Below are positions 3,350-61,380 of a stretch of DNA of 64,000 nucleotides, piece by piece. Below the pieces are notes generated by a model. The model was given only the letters and a program-made list of their open reading frames with translations. It was not told the DNA's origin and did not search any database. How positions within the stretch are numbered: the stretch's first letter is position 1; every line of letters starts with the position of its first letter. The DNA is taken from positions 496,001 through 560,000 of the forward strand of contig CANMKG010000002.1 of assembly GCA_947498505.1 (NCBI GenBank), written 5' to 3'. This stretch comes from an uncultured Maribacter sp. GTDB lineage: Bacteria > Bacteroidota > Bacteroidia > Flavobacteriales > Flavobacteriaceae. The position numbers and the translations under genes were made by a program.

Positions 3350-4858
3350 CTAGTTTATGTATAGTCCAGTATAATCAAGAGGATTTACTTGGTCTAGGTT
3401 AGAGCCATAAGTTTCGTTAATTTTTTTTATGAATTCGTTTGCTACTATGGCGTATCCTCTTGGTGATAAATGAACACCGTCTAAAGAAAAACCTCCACCT
3501 GTACCAAAAGTTGTTGTTACGGTGCTACCATCTGTTAACGGGATTCCAGTGTCCGCTCTTATCAATAAGGCTTTTATATCAACCACTGGTATGTTATATA
3601 AAGCTGCAATAGCATCAATTTGCGCATTTATTTTGTCTGTTCCGGATGCTATACTTGCTTGTTCTTCTGGAGTTAAAACCCATTTGTCACTTAAAGGAAC
3701 TGAAACACCATTAATAAGTGTTGGGTTGTTGTTGACTGTGGTGCCAATTAATTGCCGCGCCGGTAGAACTACAAGGTCTTCGGCTGTTGCCTGTCTCATA
3801 TTAATTAAAGAACTGGCACCTTCAATAGAAAGTGTAGTTAAATCAGTTAAACTTTCGTCGATGATTACTACTGCATTACCTTCTCCAGCGGTAAATGATA
3901 TTGTTCTTTTTGATAATTCCTCGTCATTTATTACGTTTTGTAGATTTAATCCAATAAGCGCATTATTGTATGCCGAATAATTAAAATTTAATAGATCAAC
4001 AGTAGCTTGGTCTAAAGGTACTGGGTTATGAGGAACAGTCGTAAAATATGGTAACTGAGCAATGTTTGGAATATTTGCAACAATGCCCTGTTTAGTCCCA
4101 TTTGCGGATAAACCAGCTAGCAATCCGGAATATACACTTGCAAAAACATTTTCATTAGTAATGTCCTCCGAACCATATTGCGTTGGGTCAATATTCATTG
4201 TAATGTTATGATCCTCACCAACACCACCTCCTACGGCATACCCAAGTACATCGTTGCTACCTATCCAAAGTGAAAAAAATGAAGGGTTTTGGATTAATGC
4301 ATCTCCAATGATACTTGCATCAGGAGAGGAAGCGAATCTTACAAAATATGGATTGGCTCTGCCTATTGCTAAATTGGTTAGGCTACCATATCCTTCAAGC
4401 CCTATGTGATAACTTTTTGCTCCAGGAACCCCCATGTTATTATAACTTCCAGAAAGTGTTTGAGTAACATCAGTTATTGGTGAGCCTTCAACCCTTGTTG
4501 GGCTAGGTTTCCCTGATGCAAAAGAAAGAAAAAGTCTATTTGGAAGAGCTGGCACACCAGGAATTATTAGTCCTCCTAAATTGTCTGCCATATAAGGTAT
4601 GTTAAATTCTCCGCCACCAGCCAGAGCAAATTGACTGGCAAGCATATTTGGCATTGAAGCTTCTTGTCCATCCTTAAATAGAGCTCCATCAGAAAATCCA
4701 GCAGTTAAGGAGTTTCCTACCGCCACATAATTAGAAAAATCTGCAGTTCCGCTAGTATAAACTTTTGGTTCTGGTGTGGGAGTGGTTAATGATTCATCGT
4801 CAGTACATGAAATTATGATAAGGCTAGATGCCAACAATAAAGCAAAATATTTTTTCAT
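3350..4858 (-). CDS. SGNH/GDSL-hydrolase family lipoprotein
   Basis: Lipobox-like SLIIISC; block I AVGNSLTAG, block III GSND, C-terminal DGVHLSPRGY. Confidence 0.85.
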   Translation of the reverse strand: MKKYFALLLASSLIIISCTDDESLTTPTPEPKVYTSGTADFSNYVAVGNSLTAGFSDGALFKDGQEASMPNMLASQFALAGGGEFNIPYMADNLGGLIIPGVPALPNRLFLSFASGKPSPTRVEGSPITDVTQTLSGSYNNMGVPGAKSYHIGLEGYGSLTNLAIGRANPYFVRFASSPDASIIGDALIQNPSFFSLWIGSNDVLGYAVGGGVGEDHNITMNIDPTQYGSEDITNENVFASVYSGLLAGLSANGTKQGIVANIPNIAQLPYFTTVPHNPVPLDQATVDLLNFNYSAYNNALIGLNLQNVINDEELSKRTISFTAGEGNAVVIIDESLTDLTTLSIEGASSLINMRQATAEDLVVLPARQLIGTTVNNNPTLINGVSVPLSDKWVLTPEEQASIASGTDKINAQIDAIAALYNIPVVDIKALLIRADTGIPLTDGSTVTTTFGTGGGFSLDGVHLSPRGYAIVANEFIKKINETYGSNLDQVNPLDYTGLYIN

Positions 4859-4910: not shown

Positions 4911-4940
4911 CAAAAGTAGTTATTTTTAAGAAATATGCAA
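4911..4940 (-). promoter_or_regulatory. Bacteroidota-type promoter for the GDSL lipoprotein gene
   Basis: Minus strand TTG (4940-4938), 19-nt spacer, TACTTTTG (4918-4911), matching TTG-N19-TAnnTTTG. Confidence 0.6.
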
Positions 4941-4958
4941 TGATTTACACAATAAAAT

Positions 4959-4970
4959 TATGCATGCATA
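4959..4970. promoter_or_regulatory. 12-bp palindrome TATGCATGCATA, putative operator
   Basis: Perfect palindrome, 18 bp upstream of the predicted -33 element; same motif at 16364 and a near copy at 61224. Confidence 0.45.
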
Positions 4971-13813: not shown

Positions 13814-14665
13814 TTAGAATAATTTTTTTCGAATCCCTTGCCAACGTAATTTTCGTATAAAAGTACTTTCTTCTCTAGTTACTAAAAAAGGAGTATTATC
13901 CTTTTTTGCTTTATAAAAGCCTTCCATGTTATTGAAAAACACACGCAGGTTTTTATGTTTTAAAGCCATTTTTAAAGAAGCTATGGTTGTTATTAAAAGG
14001 CCATAATTCATAGTGTACATGGCCTTGCCTTGAAGTATTCTTGCCTTTTTGTTATAAGCATTTCCTGTGGGTCTAAGGTGTTTTACTTTTAGGGTTTCGT
14101 CTGTAGTTATTTTAAAGCCGTGAAATTGAGCTAAAAGTTCATCTATGGTATCCCAACCCATAGCGGATTTTAATCCGCCTATGGCTTTAAAACAATCTTT
14201 AGAGTATGCCTTAAAGGCTCCTCTAACGTGGTCTTTGTTCATTGGGTGGTTAAGCAGCCATTCTTGCGAATCGTTTTTTTCATATGCAAATCCACCGGCA
14301 ATACCCACCTTTGAGTTTTTTACAAAAATTTGAGATATTGATTCAAAATAATTATTAGGTAGAATTATATCCGCATCCAGTTTTACGATAAAATTGTAGT
14401 CCACATCCAGTACATCAAAGCCTTTGTTAAACGCGTTTATTACTTTGCTTCCTGGCATATGAGCAGTTGATGAGACTGTGTTTAGTTTTTGGAAAAAATC
14501 GTTTTTCGAAATATAACTATCAATTATATTTTCCGTATCGTCCGTTGAGTTATCATTTACAATGATTACTTTTTGAGGCAGTAAAGTTTGAGATAGAATG
14601 GAATCTAACGTAAGTGCTATAAAATCTTGCTCGTTATGAGCTGGTATAACTATACAGTATTTCAT
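13814..14665 (-). CDS. Glycosyltransferase family 2 protein
   Basis: YCIVIPAHNEQDFIALTLDSILSQTLLPQKVIIVNDNSTDDT; FIVKLDADIILP (DxD). Confidence 0.9.
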   Translation of the reverse strand: MKYCIVIPAHNEQDFIALTLDSILSQTLLPQKVIIVNDNSTDDTENIIDSYISKNDFFQKLNTVSSTAHMPGSKVINAFNKGFDVLDVDYNFIVKLDADIILPNNYFESISQIFVKNSKVGIAGGFAYEKNDSQEWLLNHPMNKDHVRGAFKAYSKDCFKAIGGLKSAMGWDTIDELLAQFHGFKITTDETLKVKHLRPTGNAYNKKARILQGKAMYTMNYGLLITTIASLKMALKHKNLRVFFNNMEGFYKAKKDNTPFLVTREESTFIRKLRWQGIRKKLF

Positions 14666-15192
14666 ATTTTTTTACGTTCCGCGTAAACAATGTAATATCT
14701 TGGAGTTATGCTACGTAATAAAGGTCTAAAACCAATTTTTTTCACAGGGTTAGTCCATTTTTCTGAGGCTTTAATTTCCCAACCAGATTTTTCTAATAGC
14801 CAGTTAAATTGCCAATCCTCAAACTCATGATAATGTCTATCCCATGGGTCTGTTTTACTTTGGTAGGCTGACGAGAACCATAAACGTAGGGGTATGCTAG
14901 CTACAAGTTTGTTACCTTTAATTTCCCTTAAAACATTGAAGGGAGCTATCAGGTGTTCAAAAATTTCAAAAGCCGTTACAACGTCTGTTGTGGATGATTG
15001 TATATTTTTGAAATCAATATCTAAATCTTCTCCTTGAGTATTGGTTACCTGATAACCTCTTTCTATCATAATTTTAGAGAAAGGATTTTCAACACCTAAA
15101 TCTAAAATAGACTGGTCTTTTGAAACATATTTTTCGAGAAAATTTATGGTGTTTTTAAACCTCTTGTTTGGAAACGTTTTTTCGTACATCAA
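14662..15192 (-). CDS. SAM-dependent methyltransferase-like protein
   Basis: ILDLGVENPFSKIMIERGYQVTNTQGEDLDID...DVVTAFEIFEHLIAPFNVLREI; overlaps GT2 by 4 bp. Confidence 0.78.
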   Translation of the reverse strand: MMYEKTFPNKRFKNTINFLEKYVSKDQSILDLGVENPFSKIMIERGYQVTNTQGEDLDIDFKNIQSSTTDVVTAFEIFEHLIAPFNVLREIKGNKLVASIPLRLWFSSAYQSKTDPWDRHYHEFEDWQFNWLLEKSGWEIKASEKWTNPVKKIGFRPLLRSITPRYYIVYAERKKI

Positions 15193-15253: not shown

Positions 15254-16315
15254 TTATACTTTATAAACTATTGCATTGACATTCATTCCAGCTCCAACAC
15301 TTGCGAAAATTACGATATCACCTTTTTTAATTTCTTGGTTTTCCAATTCTCCATGCTTAACCATATCAAGAAGGGTGGGTATAGTGGCAACGGAACTATT
15401 TCCTAGTTTTTTAATGCACATAGGCATTATTCCATTAGGCAAGGTGTTGATACCGTACAACTGATAAAAACGCTGTATAATTGCTTCATCCATTTTTTCG
15501 TTAGCTTGATGAAGAAAAACTTTTTTAACGTCACTAATTGGAATATTACTGTTGTCTAAACAACTTTTCATGGCTGCAGGAACATGTGTTAAAGCAAATT
15601 CATATATTTTTCGCCCTAACATTTTTATGTAACTATTAGGGTCGTCACTTTCTGGTTTGTATGTTTTTCCATAATACAGGTAGTTTGCCTCTTCATTCGC
15701 ATAAGTTGCGCTTTCGTGAAACAAAATTTCTCCTGCGTTTTTCTTTTCTTCAATTACTGTGGCTCCAGCTCCATCAGCAAAAATCATTGAATCGCGATCA
15801 TATTTGTCTACCACTCTTGAAAGCGTTTCCGCTCCAATTACTAGACATTTTTTAGCAATGCCACTTTTAATAAAAGCATTTGCCTGAATTACGCCTTCAA
15901 CCCAACCAGGGCAGCCAAAAATTAAATCATATGCTACACATTTTGGGTTTTTAATTCTAAGGTGATGTTTTATTCGGGTTGCTATACTTGGAATAACGTC
16001 TGATTGGTTAGAACCACTAACAACATCTCCGAAATTATGAGCAACAATTATATAATCTATTTCTTCTTTAGAAATGCCAGCATCTTCAATTGCTTTTTCA
16101 GCGGCAAGAAAACCAATATCCGAAGTTGTAAATTCTGGTTTTACATACCTTCTTTCGTCAATACCGGTTATAGCTTTAAACTTTCTTATAATTGTTTTAG
16201 TGTCTGATTTTATGTCAGAACCGTCATCATTTAAAAATTTATGATTTACAAAATCCTCATTCTTCGCAATTTGAGAAGGCACATAACTGCCTGTTCCCGT
16301 AATAGTAACTCCCAT
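15254..16315 (-). CDS. 3-oxoacyl-ACP synthase III (FabH/KAS III) family protein
   Basis: 353 aa; catalytic Cys (FGCPGWVEG), His (FLHQANEKM), Asn (LGNSSVATIP) all present. Confidence 0.88.
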   Translation of the reverse strand: MGVTITGTGSYVPSQIAKNEDFVNHKFLNDDGSDIKSDTKTIIRKFKAITGIDERRYVKPEFTTSDIGFLAAEKAIEDAGISKEEIDYIIVAHNFGDVVSGSNQSDVIPSIATRIKHHLRIKNPKCVAYDLIFGCPGWVEGVIQANAFIKSGIAKKCLVIGAETLSRVVDKYDRDSMIFADGAGATVIEEKKNAGEILFHESATYANEEANYLYYGKTYKPESDDPNSYIKMLGRKIYEFALTHVPAAMKSCLDNSNIPISDVKKVFLHQANEKMDEAIIQRFYQLYGINTLPNGIMPMCIKKLGNSSVATIPTLLDMVKHGELENQEIKKGDIVIFASVGAGMNVNAIVYKV

Positions 16316-16363: not shown

Positions 16364-16375
16364 TATGCATGCATA
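16364..16375. promoter_or_regulatory. 12-bp palindrome TATGCATGCATA, putative operator
   Basis: Identical to the copy at 4959-4970; 48 bp upstream of the KAS III-like start codon. Confidence 0.4.
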
Positions 16376-55323: not shown

Positions 55324-56208
55324 TTAGTCACAAGTGTTAAACTGTTCGCCAGTAGCTGGTCCAACATCTCTGTTTCCATCACCAATACCGTCTTCAAGTA
55401 TTACTACGTCATTAGGGTCAGTAAAAGTGTAGGTATTTTCACCTTCCCAATCGCCTGAAGTATAAGAAAACAATAATCTTGTTGTACCTGCAGGAATTGT
55501 AATAGTTTCTGTCGTTGAAAAACCTGTTGGAGAATAATCAGTTTCTTCCCCGTCAATTGAAACAGTTATAAAACCACCTTGCCATCCGTCTCCAAAAAGA
55601 TCATTCATTTCTAGCGTCCAATCTCCTGGCTCAGGAATTTTAAAGCAAACAACTACTGAAGAATATCTAAAAGGTGTAACATGAGATGTGGTTCTTACGT
55701 TAGTCCCTGTATCATCAGCTGAAAAAGATCTACCATCTGTAAGATTTAAAACGTATCTCAATATAAATAAATCACCACCATCTATTTGATCAGCAGTTAA
55801 TCCAACGGCATCTAGCATAGTTTCGGCATTAATGCTATATGTGTGTTCCGGGAATCCAGAATCACCTACAGTGAAAGCAGAACCAGGTACGTTTTCAATG
55901 AATACTTCATCGATATCTAAAACTTCGTTGTTTACTGGCGTAGTATCCGCAAACAAAACGTATAAATCTATAGATTCAATAGTATCATTTTCGTCAAAAT
56001 CATTAAATAATACTGTGTTTTCCAGTAACGATTCGGAAGGATTTAATTTATTTATTGTTCCGCCAACGGTAGATACTGTTGTCAATACGGCACCTTCATT
56101 TTGTGCTACAGTATCCTCATCCAAGGGAGACTTATCATACTCACATGAAGTGGTCAGTAAGAATATGCACAAAAAGCTATAAAGAAATGTTTTTCTTAAA
56201 GTTTTCAT
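55324..56208 (-). CDS. SusC/D-associated lipoprotein (start at MKTLRKTFLYSFLC; ORF extends to 56313)
   Basis: Lipobox FLLTTSCEYD; DLFGDGWQGGFITVSIDG motif; directly downstream of susD-like gene. Confidence 0.8.
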   Translation of the reverse strand: MKTLRKTFLYSFLCIFLLTTSCEYDKSPLDEDTVAQNEGAVLTTVSTVGGTINKLNPSESLLENTVLFNDFDENDTIESIDLYVLFADTTPVNNEVLDIDEVFIENVPGSAFTVGDSGFPEHTYSINAETMLDAVGLTADQIDGGDLFILRYVLNLTDGRSFSADDTGTNVRTTSHVTPFRYSSVVVCFKIPEPGDWTLEMNDLFGDGWQGGFITVSIDGEETDYSPTGFSTTETITIPAGTTRLLFSYTSGDWEGENTYTFTDPNDVVILEDGIGDGNRDVGPATGEQFNTCD

Positions 56209-56221
56209 TTTAATTTTTTTT

Positions 56222-57907
56222 TTAGTTAATAAATCCAGTTGCTGGGTTGGTATCCCAAAATACCTGTTCCGTAACATTAGCCTTTTGCTCTGAATTGGAA
56301 TTATTGGAAACACTAGATGTTGGATAGAAGAAAGATCTTAAGAAATTATCCACATCTCCTGCTCTTATTGGCTGTAGGTCATTTGGCATACCTGTTCTTC
56401 TATAGGAGTTATATGCTTCAACTCCATTTCCAAATAACGCGATATGGTATTCCGTCATGATGGTATTTAGTTTTTCATCAGCATCCGCGGCCGTATATTT
56501 GGCCATTACTTCATCAATATAAGCATCAATGTCGGTTTGGGCCGGTTCAAAAGGAGAACCTGCTGCCTGACCACTACCAAATGTCATAACCTTTGATATG
56601 GATTGTGTAACCCCTTCTCTTAAATATGTCGCTGCGTCACCAGTTGTGCCTAAAGTCAAGGCAGATTCTGCGAGCATAAAATTAACAAAAGAAGAAAGCA
56701 TAATCGGAGAGATACCTGCTCCTTGGGTTCCTACACTTCTACTTACGATTGGTTCAAAGGAATCGCTATCGAAAACACCACCAACAGGATATACACCCCA
56801 AGTCGCTCTAGACCCAGTATCTGGTGGAATACCGGCATCATCGCCGTGATCTCTACCCCAGTATCCTGGAAAGTCAGTAGTACAGAAAGGAATGGTAAAC
56901 CCGTAATGCGTAGGAGGTAATGATCCAAAACAATCTTGCTCGTTAGTATCCATTGCATTCCTATCTAACTGTCGGTAAAAATAGTAGCGTAATCGCGGAT
57001 CTTGTACTGTCTTTTCGCTTCCAGGACCTGCTAACAACTCATTCATAAAATGATTCGACATATAGTCTAGAACAATACCAGGTGAATCAAAGTTCTTAGC
57101 AAAATCTGGATGTCTACTGTCCGGGTTATTGTCATTTGTTGTCCAATTAAACTGAAAATCATCATCAGCAGTTGTAATATAATTACCTGAAGCAATAATT
57201 GCATTGATTCCTGCTGTAGATTCAGCACTATTCACCAGCCTAGACTGTAAATAAAGCTTTAATTTCAAGGTGTTGGCAAATTTAATCCACTTTTCGCTAT
57301 CACCTCCATAATACAAATCAGACGAGTAAGATACTGCAGAGGTCTTGTTAAGGTTTTCAATAGCAGTATCTATTAAGGTAAACATTGCAGCATAGATTTC
57401 GGCACCTGAATCTCTTTTTGGATTGGAGATACCAGCAACTGCTTCGCTATAAGGAATATCTCCTAAGTAATCCACTAAAGTGGTTACAACGTAAGCTTCA
57501 ATCAATTGTGCTATTCCTAAATGCTGAAAGGCTTCCTGCTCAGTGGCTAAGGGTTCTAGTGTTCTATTATTTGATATAATTCTAGAATAGGTGTATTCCC
57601 AAACAATATTAAACTTGTCTGAAGTATAAGCATTCTGATATGTTGGACCTGTCATACGTATCATTCTAGTGGTCTCCATTCCAGCTCCAGATACTCCATC
57701 GCGGTCATCTCTACCTATTCTTCCCTGAAAAATATCCGCTAGCGCAACTTCATTTGAATTTAAGAAAAAGTCTAAATTGGCCTGTGTCTGTGAGACTTCA
57801 TCTGGATCATCTAATAATTCTAATTGTGTGGTCTCACAAGATGAGATCACAAAGAATAATCCTAAGAAAATTAATTTATATATTAATTTTTGATATATAG
57901 TTTTCAT
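56222..57907 (-). CDS. SusD/RagB-family nutrient-binding lipoprotein (SusD-like_2 type)
   Basis: Lipobox FFVISSCET; LDFFLNSNEVALADIF...AQLIEAYVVTTLVDYLGDIPYSEAV. Confidence 0.92.
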   Translation of the reverse strand: MKTIYQKLIYKLIFLGLFFVISSCETTQLELLDDPDEVSQTQANLDFFLNSNEVALADIFQGRIGRDDRDGVSGAGMETTRMIRMTGPTYQNAYTSDKFNIVWEYTYSRIISNNRTLEPLATEQEAFQHLGIAQLIEAYVVTTLVDYLGDIPYSEAVAGISNPKRDSGAEIYAAMFTLIDTAIENLNKTSAVSYSSDLYYGGDSEKWIKFANTLKLKLYLQSRLVNSAESTAGINAIIASGNYITTADDDFQFNWTTNDNNPDSRHPDFAKNFDSPGIVLDYMSNHFMNELLAGPGSEKTVQDPRLRYYFYRQLDRNAMDTNEQDCFGSLPPTHYGFTIPFCTTDFPGYWGRDHGDDAGIPPDTGSRATWGVYPVGGVFDSDSFEPIVSRSVGTQGAGISPIMLSSFVNFMLAESALTLGTTGDAATYLREGVTQSISKVMTFGSGQAAGSPFEPAQTDIDAYIDEVMAKYTAADADEKLNTIMTEYHIALFGNGVEAYNSYRRTGMPNDLQPIRAGDVDNFLRSFFYPTSSVSNNSNSEQKANVTEQVFWDTNPATGFIN

Positions 57908-57918
57908 ATTATTTTTTT

Positions 57919-60900
57919 TTAAAATTCAAATTTCAAGCTAAATCCATACCTAGCTGCACTAGGACCTGAAAAGAAATCTAAACCTTGAGCATTACTTACC
58001 CCAGCACTGTTTACATTTGGATCAAAGTTCGCATCCTTAGGGGTATTAAATGCTCTGTACCAAAGGTTAGATCCTAATAGTGTGACGTTTATGTTTGAGA
58101 ATGGTGTTCCATTCAACATTTTGTCACTAAAGTCATATGATAAGCTTACTTCATTTAAGCGTAACATGGTACCATCATAGATTTTAAAGTTTGCAGGACC
58201 AAATAACCAGGCATCGAAAGCAATATCTGTGGCATTGACCTGAACATTATTTGGTTGCCCAGAATTTTGGTTCACACCAGGTAATATATAAGTACCTTCC
58301 CTAGAAAATGGAAATTCGATTACCCCTCTATTTTGAAGCGTAGAAACCGTACGGGAGTAAATATCTCCCCCTTGTCTATATGCTAAATCTACACTTAATC
58401 TAAGGTTTTTGTAACCAATATTAGTTCTAAGGTTAGCTGTGTAATCCGCATTAGGGTCACCTATAACATTATCAATGCTAGCAGATGCAATATAGATACC
58501 ATCGTCCCCAACTAATAGGTTGCCAGCGTCATCTGTTTCAACTTTAGACCCTAAGAATACACCATAAGGTTGCCCTTCAACTGCAGCGTTTCGTGCATCC
58601 GCAACTGTTGTTGGTCCACCAATAGTAATGTTGTTAACACCATCAGGTAGTTCAGTAATAACAGGTTCGTCTGCGTAAAAGGTTAAACCAAAGTCTAAAT
58701 TGAAACCATCAGGGTTTCTGAACATGTCATAGGTTAAACCTACTTCAATCCCTTCATTTTCTAAGGTACCTGCATTTATATACTGTTGAGTAAAACCTTC
58801 ACTTGGAGGCAATTCCCTAAGTGTAATTAAGTCTGTAGTTTTTCTTTTAAATACACTAGTATTTAAGCCTATTCTATTGTCCCAAAGTTTTGCGTCTATT
58901 CCAGCTTCAAATTCAGTAACAAGTTCAGGTACTAAATCTGCATTTCCTAATTGGAAACTAGTATCGTTACCAGAAAGGTTATTACCATCTCCATCAACAA
59001 ATAAATTACCATTAAGTGATAAGGTAGTTCGCGTTGAATATGTAGGAGGGAAACCAGCAGATGATCCATAACCTAATCTAAGTTTTAAATAATTCAAAGC
59101 CTTGGATTGTAAACCATCTATTGCGGAAGTTGGTATAAACGATAAACTTGCTGAAGGATAAAAGACGGTGTTGTTATCAGTTTCTAAGGTTGAAGTCCAG
59201 TCATTACGTCCTTGAACGTTTAAGTATAAATAATCTTCATACCCTAAAGTTAAGTCTCCAAAAACTCCATAAGTGCTTTCACGTGATTGTGATTGGAGGG
59301 GAAGATTCGAAAAAGAGTTTGTTGTTGATTGTTGTGTAAAGTTGAAATGTCTTAAGATTCCAAATACTACTTGGTTTGTACTTTCCACCCCATCTCTGTC
59401 AAATTCTATACGGTTAGAGTTAAAACCAAGAATACCTTTAAAATTGAATTTATCAGATAAATCTTTGTCGTAATTGATAGAGAAGTTATGGTCCAGAATA
59501 GTATTAACAATACTTGTTGTTCTTAAAAGACCTAATGGATTTCCGTCGATACCACCCCTGTTTTGAGCATAAAAACCATTTTCAGTATATGTATTGAAAC
59601 CAAATCTGTATGCAAGTGATAAATTGTCATTTACAGAATAAACAGTACTAAAACTAGAAAAGATGTTAGTTGTCTTCTGTCCAGTTTTCACGTTTTCAAC
59701 TGTCCATAACGGGTGTTGAATACCGTTAGTCTCTCTATAATATAAAGATCCACCATCAGCTCTTTGAAAAGGAATGTTTATTAAATCAACATTACGGGGA
59801 GTGTAAAATATATCACTAAAGATAGATGCACCGTCACCAATAACTCCACTACCTCGTGAAGCTGCAATAGGAGGCGATTTATAATCTGTTCTTGCAACAT
59901 TAACAGAAGCATTGACTTTAAGTTTACCAATGGTACCATTAGCACCTATTGTAAAATTATCTCTTGCTAACTCGTTGCCAGGTGTAAAACCTTCATCGTT
60001 CAGTTTTGTATAACCAACATTATACCCAAATTTACTATTACCTCCAGTTAAGTTAATACTAGTGGTAACGTTAAGACCCTTTCTAAAGAAATTTTCAACA
60101 CTATTATAGGGCTTAAGTTCATATTCTGAAGCAGCTAAATCTTCATAGCCTTCTATAAATGCTTGATTAACATTAGTGGCAAAAGGATGTGTTACAAAAA
60201 CAGTTCCGTCAGCTCCTGTGCTTGTTTGGTAGGCTTGATAATTAGCTGTAGGGTCTTTAAATCGAGGCCCCCAGTTACTAAAAAACCAACCAAAGGTATT
60301 GTTGAAACCACCAGCATACTCATCTTGATAATTTGGAAGGTGAGGAGAACTTGTAAAAACAGACGACGTAATCGATAATTTCACGGCTCCGTCCTCATTT
60401 TTTCCAGATCCTGATTTTGTAGTAATTAAGATTACCCCATTTCTACCTCTATTTCCATAAAGTGCAGTTGCACTTAAACCTTTAAGAATACTAATGTCTT
60501 CAATGTTGTTCGGGTCAATATCCAAGAAGCGATTCGACGCGGTACGTCCATCACGGAAAATTCCATCCTGATTAGCACCACTATCAAAAGGAATACCATC
60601 AATTACAAAAAGTGCTTGGTTGTTACCAGTAATTGAAGTGTTACCTCTAATGACAATATTAGATGCCGAACCAGTTAAACCATTAGCTGCAGTGATATTA
60701 ACACCTGCCGCTTTACCTTGTAGTAAGCGACCTAAATCACCCTCCGCTTTTTGTTGTATTTCTTCATTTCCAACCTTACTTACAGCATAACCCAGAGACT
60801 TTTTCTCTCTTTTTATACCTAAAGCAGTAACGACAACCTCTTCGAGAGCTTGTGCATCTTCTTCCATTTTGACGTTGATAGTGTTTGAAGAACCTACATC

Positions 60901-61149
60901 TGCAGAAGTGTTTTTCTGCCCGATGTAACTAAAAAGTAAAGTTTGTCCTTCACTTGCTTTGATGGCGTAGTTTCCATCAAAATCTGTTTGAGTACCATTT
61001 GTAGTGCCTTGCACGACGATGTTTACTCCGGGAAGTGGGAGGCCGCTTTGGTCAGTAACAACACCGGTAATCGTTTTTTCTTGCGCAAATGAAACATGCA
61101 CAATAAACGCCAATAACAGCGTTAACAATCCGTTTCGTTTTGTTTTCAT
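57919..61149 (-). CDS. SusC/RagA-family TonB-linked outer membrane protein (start at MKTKRNGLLTLL; ORF extends to 61185)
   Basis: GVVTDQSGLPLPGVNIVVQGTTNGTQTDFDGNYAI; EEVVVTALGIKREKKSLGYAV; ATALYGNRGRNGVILITTKSG. Confidence 0.97.
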   Translation of the reverse strand: MKTKRNGLLTLLLAFIVHVSFAQEKTITGVVTDQSGLPLPGVNIVVQGTTNGTQTDFDGNYAIKASEGQTLLFSYIGQKNTSADVGSSNTINVKMEEDAQALEEVVVTALGIKREKKSLGYAVSKVGNEEIQQKAEGDLGRLLQGKAAGVNITAANGLTGSASNIVIRGNTSITGNNQALFVIDGIPFDSGANQDGIFRDGRTASNRFLDIDPNNIEDISILKGLSATALYGNRGRNGVILITTKSGSGKNEDGAVKLSITSSVFTSSPHLPNYQDEYAGGFNNTFGWFFSNWGPRFKDPTANYQAYQTSTGADGTVFVTHPFATNVNQAFIEGYEDLAASEYELKPYNSVENFFRKGLNVTTSINLTGGNSKFGYNVGYTKLNDEGFTPGNELARDNFTIGANGTIGKLKVNASVNVARTDYKSPPIAASRGSGVIGDGASIFSDIFYTPRNVDLINIPFQRADGGSLYYRETNGIQHPLWTVENVKTGQKTTNIFSSFSTVYSVNDNLSLAYRFGFNTYTENGFYAQNRGGIDGNPLGLLRTTSIVNTILDHNFSINYDKDLSDKFNFKGILGFNSNRIEFDRDGVESTNQVVFGILRHFNFTQQSTTNSFSNLPLQSQSRESTYGVFGDLTLGYEDYLYLNVQGRNDWTSTLETDNNTVFYPSASLSFIPTSAIDGLQSKALNYLKLRLGYGSSAGFPPTYSTRTTLSLNGNLFVDGDGNNLSGNDTSFQLGNADLVPELVTEFEAGIDAKLWDNRIGLNTSVFKRKTTDLITLRELPPSEGFTQQYINAGTLENEGIEVGLTYDMFRNPDGFNLDFGLTFYADEPVITELPDGVNNITIGGPTTVADARNAAVEGQPYGVFLGSKVETDDAGNLLVGDDGIYIASASIDNVIGDPNADYTANLRTNIGYKNLRLSVDLAYRQGGDIYSRTVSTLQNRGVIEFPFSREGTYILPGVNQNSGQPNNVQVNATDIAFDAWLFGPANFKIYDGTMLRLNEVSLSYDFSDKMLNGTPFSNINVTLLGSNLWYRAFNTPKDANFDPNVNSAGVSNAQGLDFFSGPSAARYGFSLKFEF

Positions 61150-61223
61150 TTTATATTTATTTGAATTAGCTGTGGCAAAAATCACAAATTCATGTTAATA
61201 ATGCAAGTTTTTTTAACTTTTAA

Positions 61224-61235
61224 TTATGCTTGCAT
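61224..61235. promoter_or_regulatory. TATGCTTGCATA inverted repeat, putative operator upstream of susC-like gene
   Basis: One base different from the perfect palindrome at 4959 and 16364; 17 bp upstream of a candidate -33 TTG (61206-61204, minus). Confidence 0.4.
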
Positions 61236-61380
61236 AGCTTATTTTGTTATATATCAATGTCTGCGGCTTATTTTGTTGATATTTTATTGAAAAAGGGGTG
61301 ATTTTATTAAAATGATAACATAATACAGTTTTATTAGGGTTTTTCTTTCAAAAATCAAATTAGGGTTATGTTTTTTTTAT

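Follow-up and report, generated by a model that had tools for sequence, protein, structure and literature searches.

A conserved palindrome of Bacteroidia as the predicted operator through which a MarR-family protein would control genes for beta-oxidation and lipid uptake

Results

The palindrome and the genes behind it in the window

The initial annotation of the 64-kb stretch of DNA analysed here (the window, taken at its full length) had drawn attention to a palindromic box that stands upstream of three unlinked genes, and had proposed that these genes form a candidate regulon. Which protein could recognise this box, and what do the genes behind it have in common? The boxes were indeed found upstream of the minus-strand genes for a GDSL lipase, a KAS III-like protein and a SusC-like receptor. 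Two of them lie exactly where they had been placed (4959-4970 and 16364-16375), whereas the third had been given as 61224-61235, one base too low. Because of this shift, the spacing between the box and the TTG of the putative promoter, reported as 18 bp for GDSL and 17 bp for SusC, is exactly 18 bp in both cases. The features are the following:

3350-4858, minus strand: GDSL lipase/acylhydrolase gene, 502 aa (PF00657)
4911-4918, minus strand: candidate -7 element TACTTTTG (TAnnTTTG) of the GDSL promoter, from the sequence, at an identical offset in 3/3 genomes
4938-4940, minus strand: candidate -33 TTG of the GDSL promoter, from the sequence, conserved in 3/3 genomes
4959-4970, no strand: candidate operator box TATGCATGCATA of the GDSL lipase gene, with 18 bp between its end and the -33 TTG
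15254-16315, minus strand: KAS III-like gene (3-oxoacyl-ACP synthase III family), 353 aa (PF08545, PF08541)
16364-16375, no strand: candidate operator box TATGCATGCATA of the KAS III-like gene, upstream of it by 48 bp
56222-57907, minus strand: SusD-like lipoprotein gene (PF12771), directly downstream of SusC on the same strand
57919-61149, minus strand: SusC/RagA-type TonB-dependent receptor gene (TIGR04056, 560.9 bits, cut-off 368)
61176-61183, minus strand: candidate -7 element GATTTTTG of the SusC promoter, from the sequence
61204-61206, minus strand: candidate -33 TTG of the SusC promoter, from the sequence, at an identical offset in 9/9 genomes
61225-61236, no strand: candidate operator box TATGCTTGCATA of the SusC-like gene, with 18 bp between its end and the -33 TTG

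For SusC, the longest possible reading frame begins at GTG 61185. Since this start would overlap the candidate -7 element, it was moved to the ATG at 61149, which is likely the better choice. The KAS III-like protein scored under the cut-off of every NCBIfam FabH model. Two reading frames without a Pfam match follow on the same strand, at 14662-15192 (176 aa) after the KAS III gene and at 55324-56313 (329 aa) after the SusD gene, and are possibly co-transcribed with the boxed genes.

Inside the window the pattern TATGCNNGCATA has three matches. In 100 dinucleotide shuffles the expectation was 0.04, and no shuffle gave as many as three. The whole genome (4.08 Mb) contains eight sites, with two for the reversed control pattern, and the eight genomes of the same genus, when pooled, contain 75 sites with respect to 24 for the reversed pattern. 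Seven of the eight genomic sites are intergenic, the sole coding match being C1:546960. The sites are therefore enriched and mostly intergenic, and a random frequency with no intergenic bias was not borne out by the genome-wide scan. A further candidate at C4:272656 (TATGCACGGATA), which sits within a long open reading frame, was taken as a chance match. That three of the eight sites fall in one 64-kb window is unusual (binomial 2e-4). In several relatives the KAS III gene and the rpsL/SusC region lie on the same contig, tens of kb apart; the clustering is partly inherited synteny, and a functional reason for it was not seen.

Boxed genes outside the window

The theme of beta-oxidation and lipids comes from the four intergenic sites that lie outside the window. 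The site at C1:212070 precedes a minus-strand operon composed of marR, a fadB-like gene (3-hydroxyacyl-CoA dehydrogenase/enoyl-CoA hydratase), fadA and an acyl-CoA dehydrogenase gene, and the one at C7:132272 precedes etfB-etfA. Of the remaining two, C3:201464 is flanked by genes for a nitronate monooxygenase and an acyl-CoA thioesterase, and C3:263151 stands before the gene of a TonB-dependent receptor, TBDR.

Some lineages carry additional boxes. Between rpmF and fabH-accB, close behind the former and about 160 bp ahead of the latter, a box is exact in 6/30 relatives and has one mismatch in 5/30; in this genome the one-mismatch copy is at G000:C3:76903 (L271:1502). As a core target fabH-accB was rejected for the genus under study, in which a one-mismatch box is present in G000 and G002 only. 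In several genera (L281, L285, L290, L292, L038) the box adjoins the rpmF terminator. If functional, this box would bring fatty-acid synthesis into the regulon in some of the lineages. Genes of the nitronate monooxygenase family are boxed also in G020, G021 and G024; such boxes occur in four genera (L284, L287, L289, L011), sometimes a few bases before the start codon. The distribution of the fabH-accB and nitronate monooxygenase boxes suggests that the regulon grew lineage by lineage.

Conservation of the boxes

Phylogenetic footprinting, which had been proposed as a check, showed that the box is conserved at orthologous promoters, the fixed columns of the box being 100% identical and the flanks about 40-75%. 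The KAS III box is exact at the orthologous position in 8/8 genomes of the same genus and in G008, G018 and G026 (11/30 relatives); a column-wise comparison of nine of these genomes gave 100% identity for the ten fixed columns and 49-54% for the flanks. The SusC box is exact in nine genomes from three genera, with flanks that are 48% and 74% identical. In G001, G004 and G007 the box stands before a SusC relative that is more distant (about 34-44% identity) and lies a few kb from rpsL.

The GDSL box is exact in G000 (this genome), G002 and G005 only, which belong to one genus, likely because elsewhere the GDSL gene follows a boxed TBDR gene. In 15/21 relatives the TBDR gene is preceded by an exact box, 73-82 bp from the start, and in 12 of those 15 genomes a GDSL gene lies directly 3' of it, with a gap of 29-146 bp. 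In G000, G002 and G005 the GDSL gene stands apart from the TBDR gene, and each has its own box. The etfB box, outside the window, is exact in 25/30 relatives.

A candidate MarR-family regulator with the box before its own gene

The first gene of the fad operon, marR (G000:C1:211593-212042, outside the window), codes for a protein of 150 residues with a MarR winged-helix domain (PF01047, 41.6 bits, cut-off 24.6). Its AF2 model, with a pLDDT of 90.5, matches MepR, MexR, MarR and SlyA. The protein fits no named MarR subfamily among the NCBIfam equivalog models, the best of ten matches, all far below their cut-off, being Saro_0803 (44.8 bits vs. 200). Nor is it a GntR protein of the E. coli FadR type, Pfam giving MarR-type domains only. 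Among nineteen diverse MarR orthologs, the residues G57, M58, E59, S62, R65, D84 and R86 of the recognition helix and wing are invariant.

The exact box was found 27-44 bp before the marR start codon in 80/80 named Flavobacteriaceae loci, whereas 1/3582 control windows was within one mismatch of it. Among the 30 relatives it is exact in 29 and has a single mismatch in the remaining one; among 29 further Bacteroidia, with protein identity down to 43%, it is exact in 23 and has one mismatch in another four. The fadB-like gene follows marR in 80/80 named loci and in 27/29 of the further Bacteroidia. The boxes at marR are mostly contained within a longer palindrome of about 26 bp, such as AATTTATTATGCATGCATAATAAATT or AATATATTATGCATGCATAATATATT, whose arms co-vary at position 10 from the centre (90% complementary vs. 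67 ± 3% in shuffled controls).

The frequency of the box was compared in 196 Bacteroidia genomes besides this one, 95 with and 101 without a marR match (E <= 1e-20). The genomes with marR contain 213 TATGCRYGCATA sites with respect to 27 for the reversed control (0.58 vs. 0.07 per Mb), and those without it 50 sites with respect to 24 (0.16 vs. 0.07 per Mb). At least two sites are present in 58/95 and in 10/101 genomes, respectively. The difference between the two groups has a Mann-Whitney p of 8e-15, which is indicative only, since the genomes are phylogenetically non-independent. The marR-negative genomes with at least two sites may have a more distant regulator that uses the identical box. 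One genome that is marR-negative at this threshold, G034 (L015), has three sites with an R-Y centre.

The candidate regulon that had been proposed is supported by these results, and it now has strong candidates for its regulator, the MarR-family protein, and for its theme, beta-oxidation and lipid acquisition.

Position of the box in the promoters

Flavobacterial promoters have a TTG at -33 and a TAnnTTTG element at -7. The latter motif appears in papers on flavobacterial promoters. The positions -33, -7 and -58 used here are estimates by consensus. At marR, the -7 element begins 23-24 bp from the start of the box in 80/80 loci, so that the box covers the -33 region. At etfB and KAS III a weaker -7-like element is found about 18-21 bp after the box, which is at or adjoining -33. 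The position of the box in these three promoters suggests repression by occlusion.

In the SusC (9/9) and GDSL (3/3) promoters the box is followed at 18 bp by a TTG and at 40-41 bp by a -7-like element; in SusC the latter reads GA(C/T)TTTTG at an identical offset in all nine genomes. In most TBDR promoters a -7-like element comes at about 39-40 bp, and only 4/15 have an exact TTG at 18 bp. Here the box would be near -58, a position that is compatible also with activation. The initial annotation had considered the box well placed for an activator, which holds as geometry for SusC and GDSL; at marR, where the box lies on -33, a repressor fits better. A common helical phase of the boxes was considered and rejected, since the distances from the end of the box to -7 (11-12, about 18-21 and 39-41 bp) share none.

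Discussion

Proposed mechanism and alternatives

The association of the box with the regulator and the target genes is conserved. We consider it highly probable that the palindrome is the operator of the MarR-family protein, which would control beta-oxidation and lipid uptake, probably as a repressor at the fad and etf genes. MarR is proposed as the regulator because the box is fixed before marR across the class, and because its frequency follows that of marR. The other boxed genes are largely those of beta-oxidation (etfBA, acyl-CoA thioesterase) and the receptor-plus-lipase pair, while the tie of KAS III and SusC to fatty-acid use is indirect. A MarR dimer would bind the palindromic box and, without fatty acids, would occlude -33 at the promoter of the marR-fad operon, and probably also at those of etf and KAS III. 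A fatty acid or an acyl-CoA would then release MarR from DNA, and the breakdown enzymes and the uptake genes (SusC/SusD, TBDR and GDSL lipase) would respond together to this release. At SusC, GDSL and TBDR, with the box near -58, MarR might activate instead. Against the MarR operator are the marR-negative genomes with two or more sites, the GDSL footprint of three genomes in one genus, and the KAS III and SusC boxes being present in part of the family only.

That the same regulator has a dual sign, repressing where the box covers -33 (at marR-fad, and probably at etf and KAS III) and activating from about -58 at SusC, GDSL and TBDR, in the manner of E. coli FadR, which does both, is possible though doubtful. 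The fixed 18-bp spacing to the TTG in SusC and GDSL argues for it, as does the -7-like element at 39-41 bp, which recurs in three different gene families (SusC, GDSL and most of the TBDR promoters). These promoters keep a -33 TTG or near-TTG that the marR promoter does not have. However, promoters within a family are related by descent, so that the spacing amounts to at most three independent cases, and upon the arrival of fatty acids the uptake genes are expected to rise with beta-oxidation, not against it. We find it improbable that the box belongs to another DNA-binding protein of identical distribution, with marR as merely one of its targets. The sites in marR-negative genomes, which still exceed their control, would agree with such a protein, but the box before marR is the only feature present in nearly every case and the longest palindrome of the set, its form is that expected for the operator of a MarR dimer, and its frequency follows marR. 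About 2.6 matches are expected genome-wide, so some of the eight sites should be background, for instance the coding one at C1:546960. Nevertheless, it is very improbable that, in an otherwise real regulon, any of the three sites in the window is a chance match without function, since each of them is kept at the orthologous promoter while the flanks diverge. This argument is weakest for GDSL, which is supported instead by the split-operon pattern with separate TBDR and GDSL boxes.

Comparison with known regulators

FabT, which controls fatty-acid synthesis, and CouR (p-coumaroyl-CoA), which controls aromatic catabolism, have the MarR fold in common with the regulator proposed here. CouR structures exist with an acyl-CoA ligand and with a 23-mer DNA (5cyv, 6c2s), and the protein is about 20-22% identical to this MarR; the MarR profile also matches the FabT structure 6jbx, a distant sequence relative.

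E. coli FadR is described as a repressor of fad genes and an activator of synthesis genes (PMC3460868). The likeness consists in one regulator over beta-oxidation genes, as the fad genes are here under one box, with fabH-accB in some genera. However, FadR is a GntR protein and not a MarR protein, its operator differs, and the regulon described here includes SusC/SusD and TBDR-GDSL, with activation as a possibility. It is rather unlikely, and we propose it tentatively, that the regulator is a MarR-family FadR counterpart of Bacteroidota that would repress beta-oxidation through occlusion of -33 and activate lipid acquisition by SusC/SusD and TBDR-GDSL from a fixed position at about -58, fabH-accB being added in some genera. 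Fatty-acid regulators of the TetR type are FadR of Sulfolobus (PMC6449355) and Fad35R of Mycobacterium, whose binding is reduced by palmitoyl-CoA (PMC4418694). Like marR, they are local to genes of fatty-acid metabolism, but they belong to another protein family and to other phyla.

MarR-family catabolic regulons are a well-known type of system, to which this one adds a member. No description of the operator or of the regulator was found in a literature search that covered few subscription journals and preprints; within this scope the regulon, whose conservation extends over much of the class Bacteroidia, is apparently undescribed. If the proposal is true, it identifies, for a large part of Bacteroidia, the regulator of fatty-acid breakdown together with the operator. 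It would also tie a SusC/SusD pair, a TBDR and a GDSL lipase to lipid use, and point to a class of substrates for outer-membrane systems whose annotation refers mostly to glycans. Strong induction of beta-oxidation genes by fish mucus and plasma has been reported for Flavobacterium psychrophilum (PMC9723704), with no mention of MarR in the main text of that paper; the regulon would be a possible mechanism for this induction, provided that the species carries the regulator.

Paired boxes

In a few genomes the boxes come in pairs. Upstream of marR, two boxes are about 30 bp apart in G213 (C1:1050145 and 1050175) and in G163 (C1:1617811 and 1617840); in G024 (C5:329969 and 330065) the distance is 96 bp. 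Their arrangement suggests either cooperative binding or two promoters.
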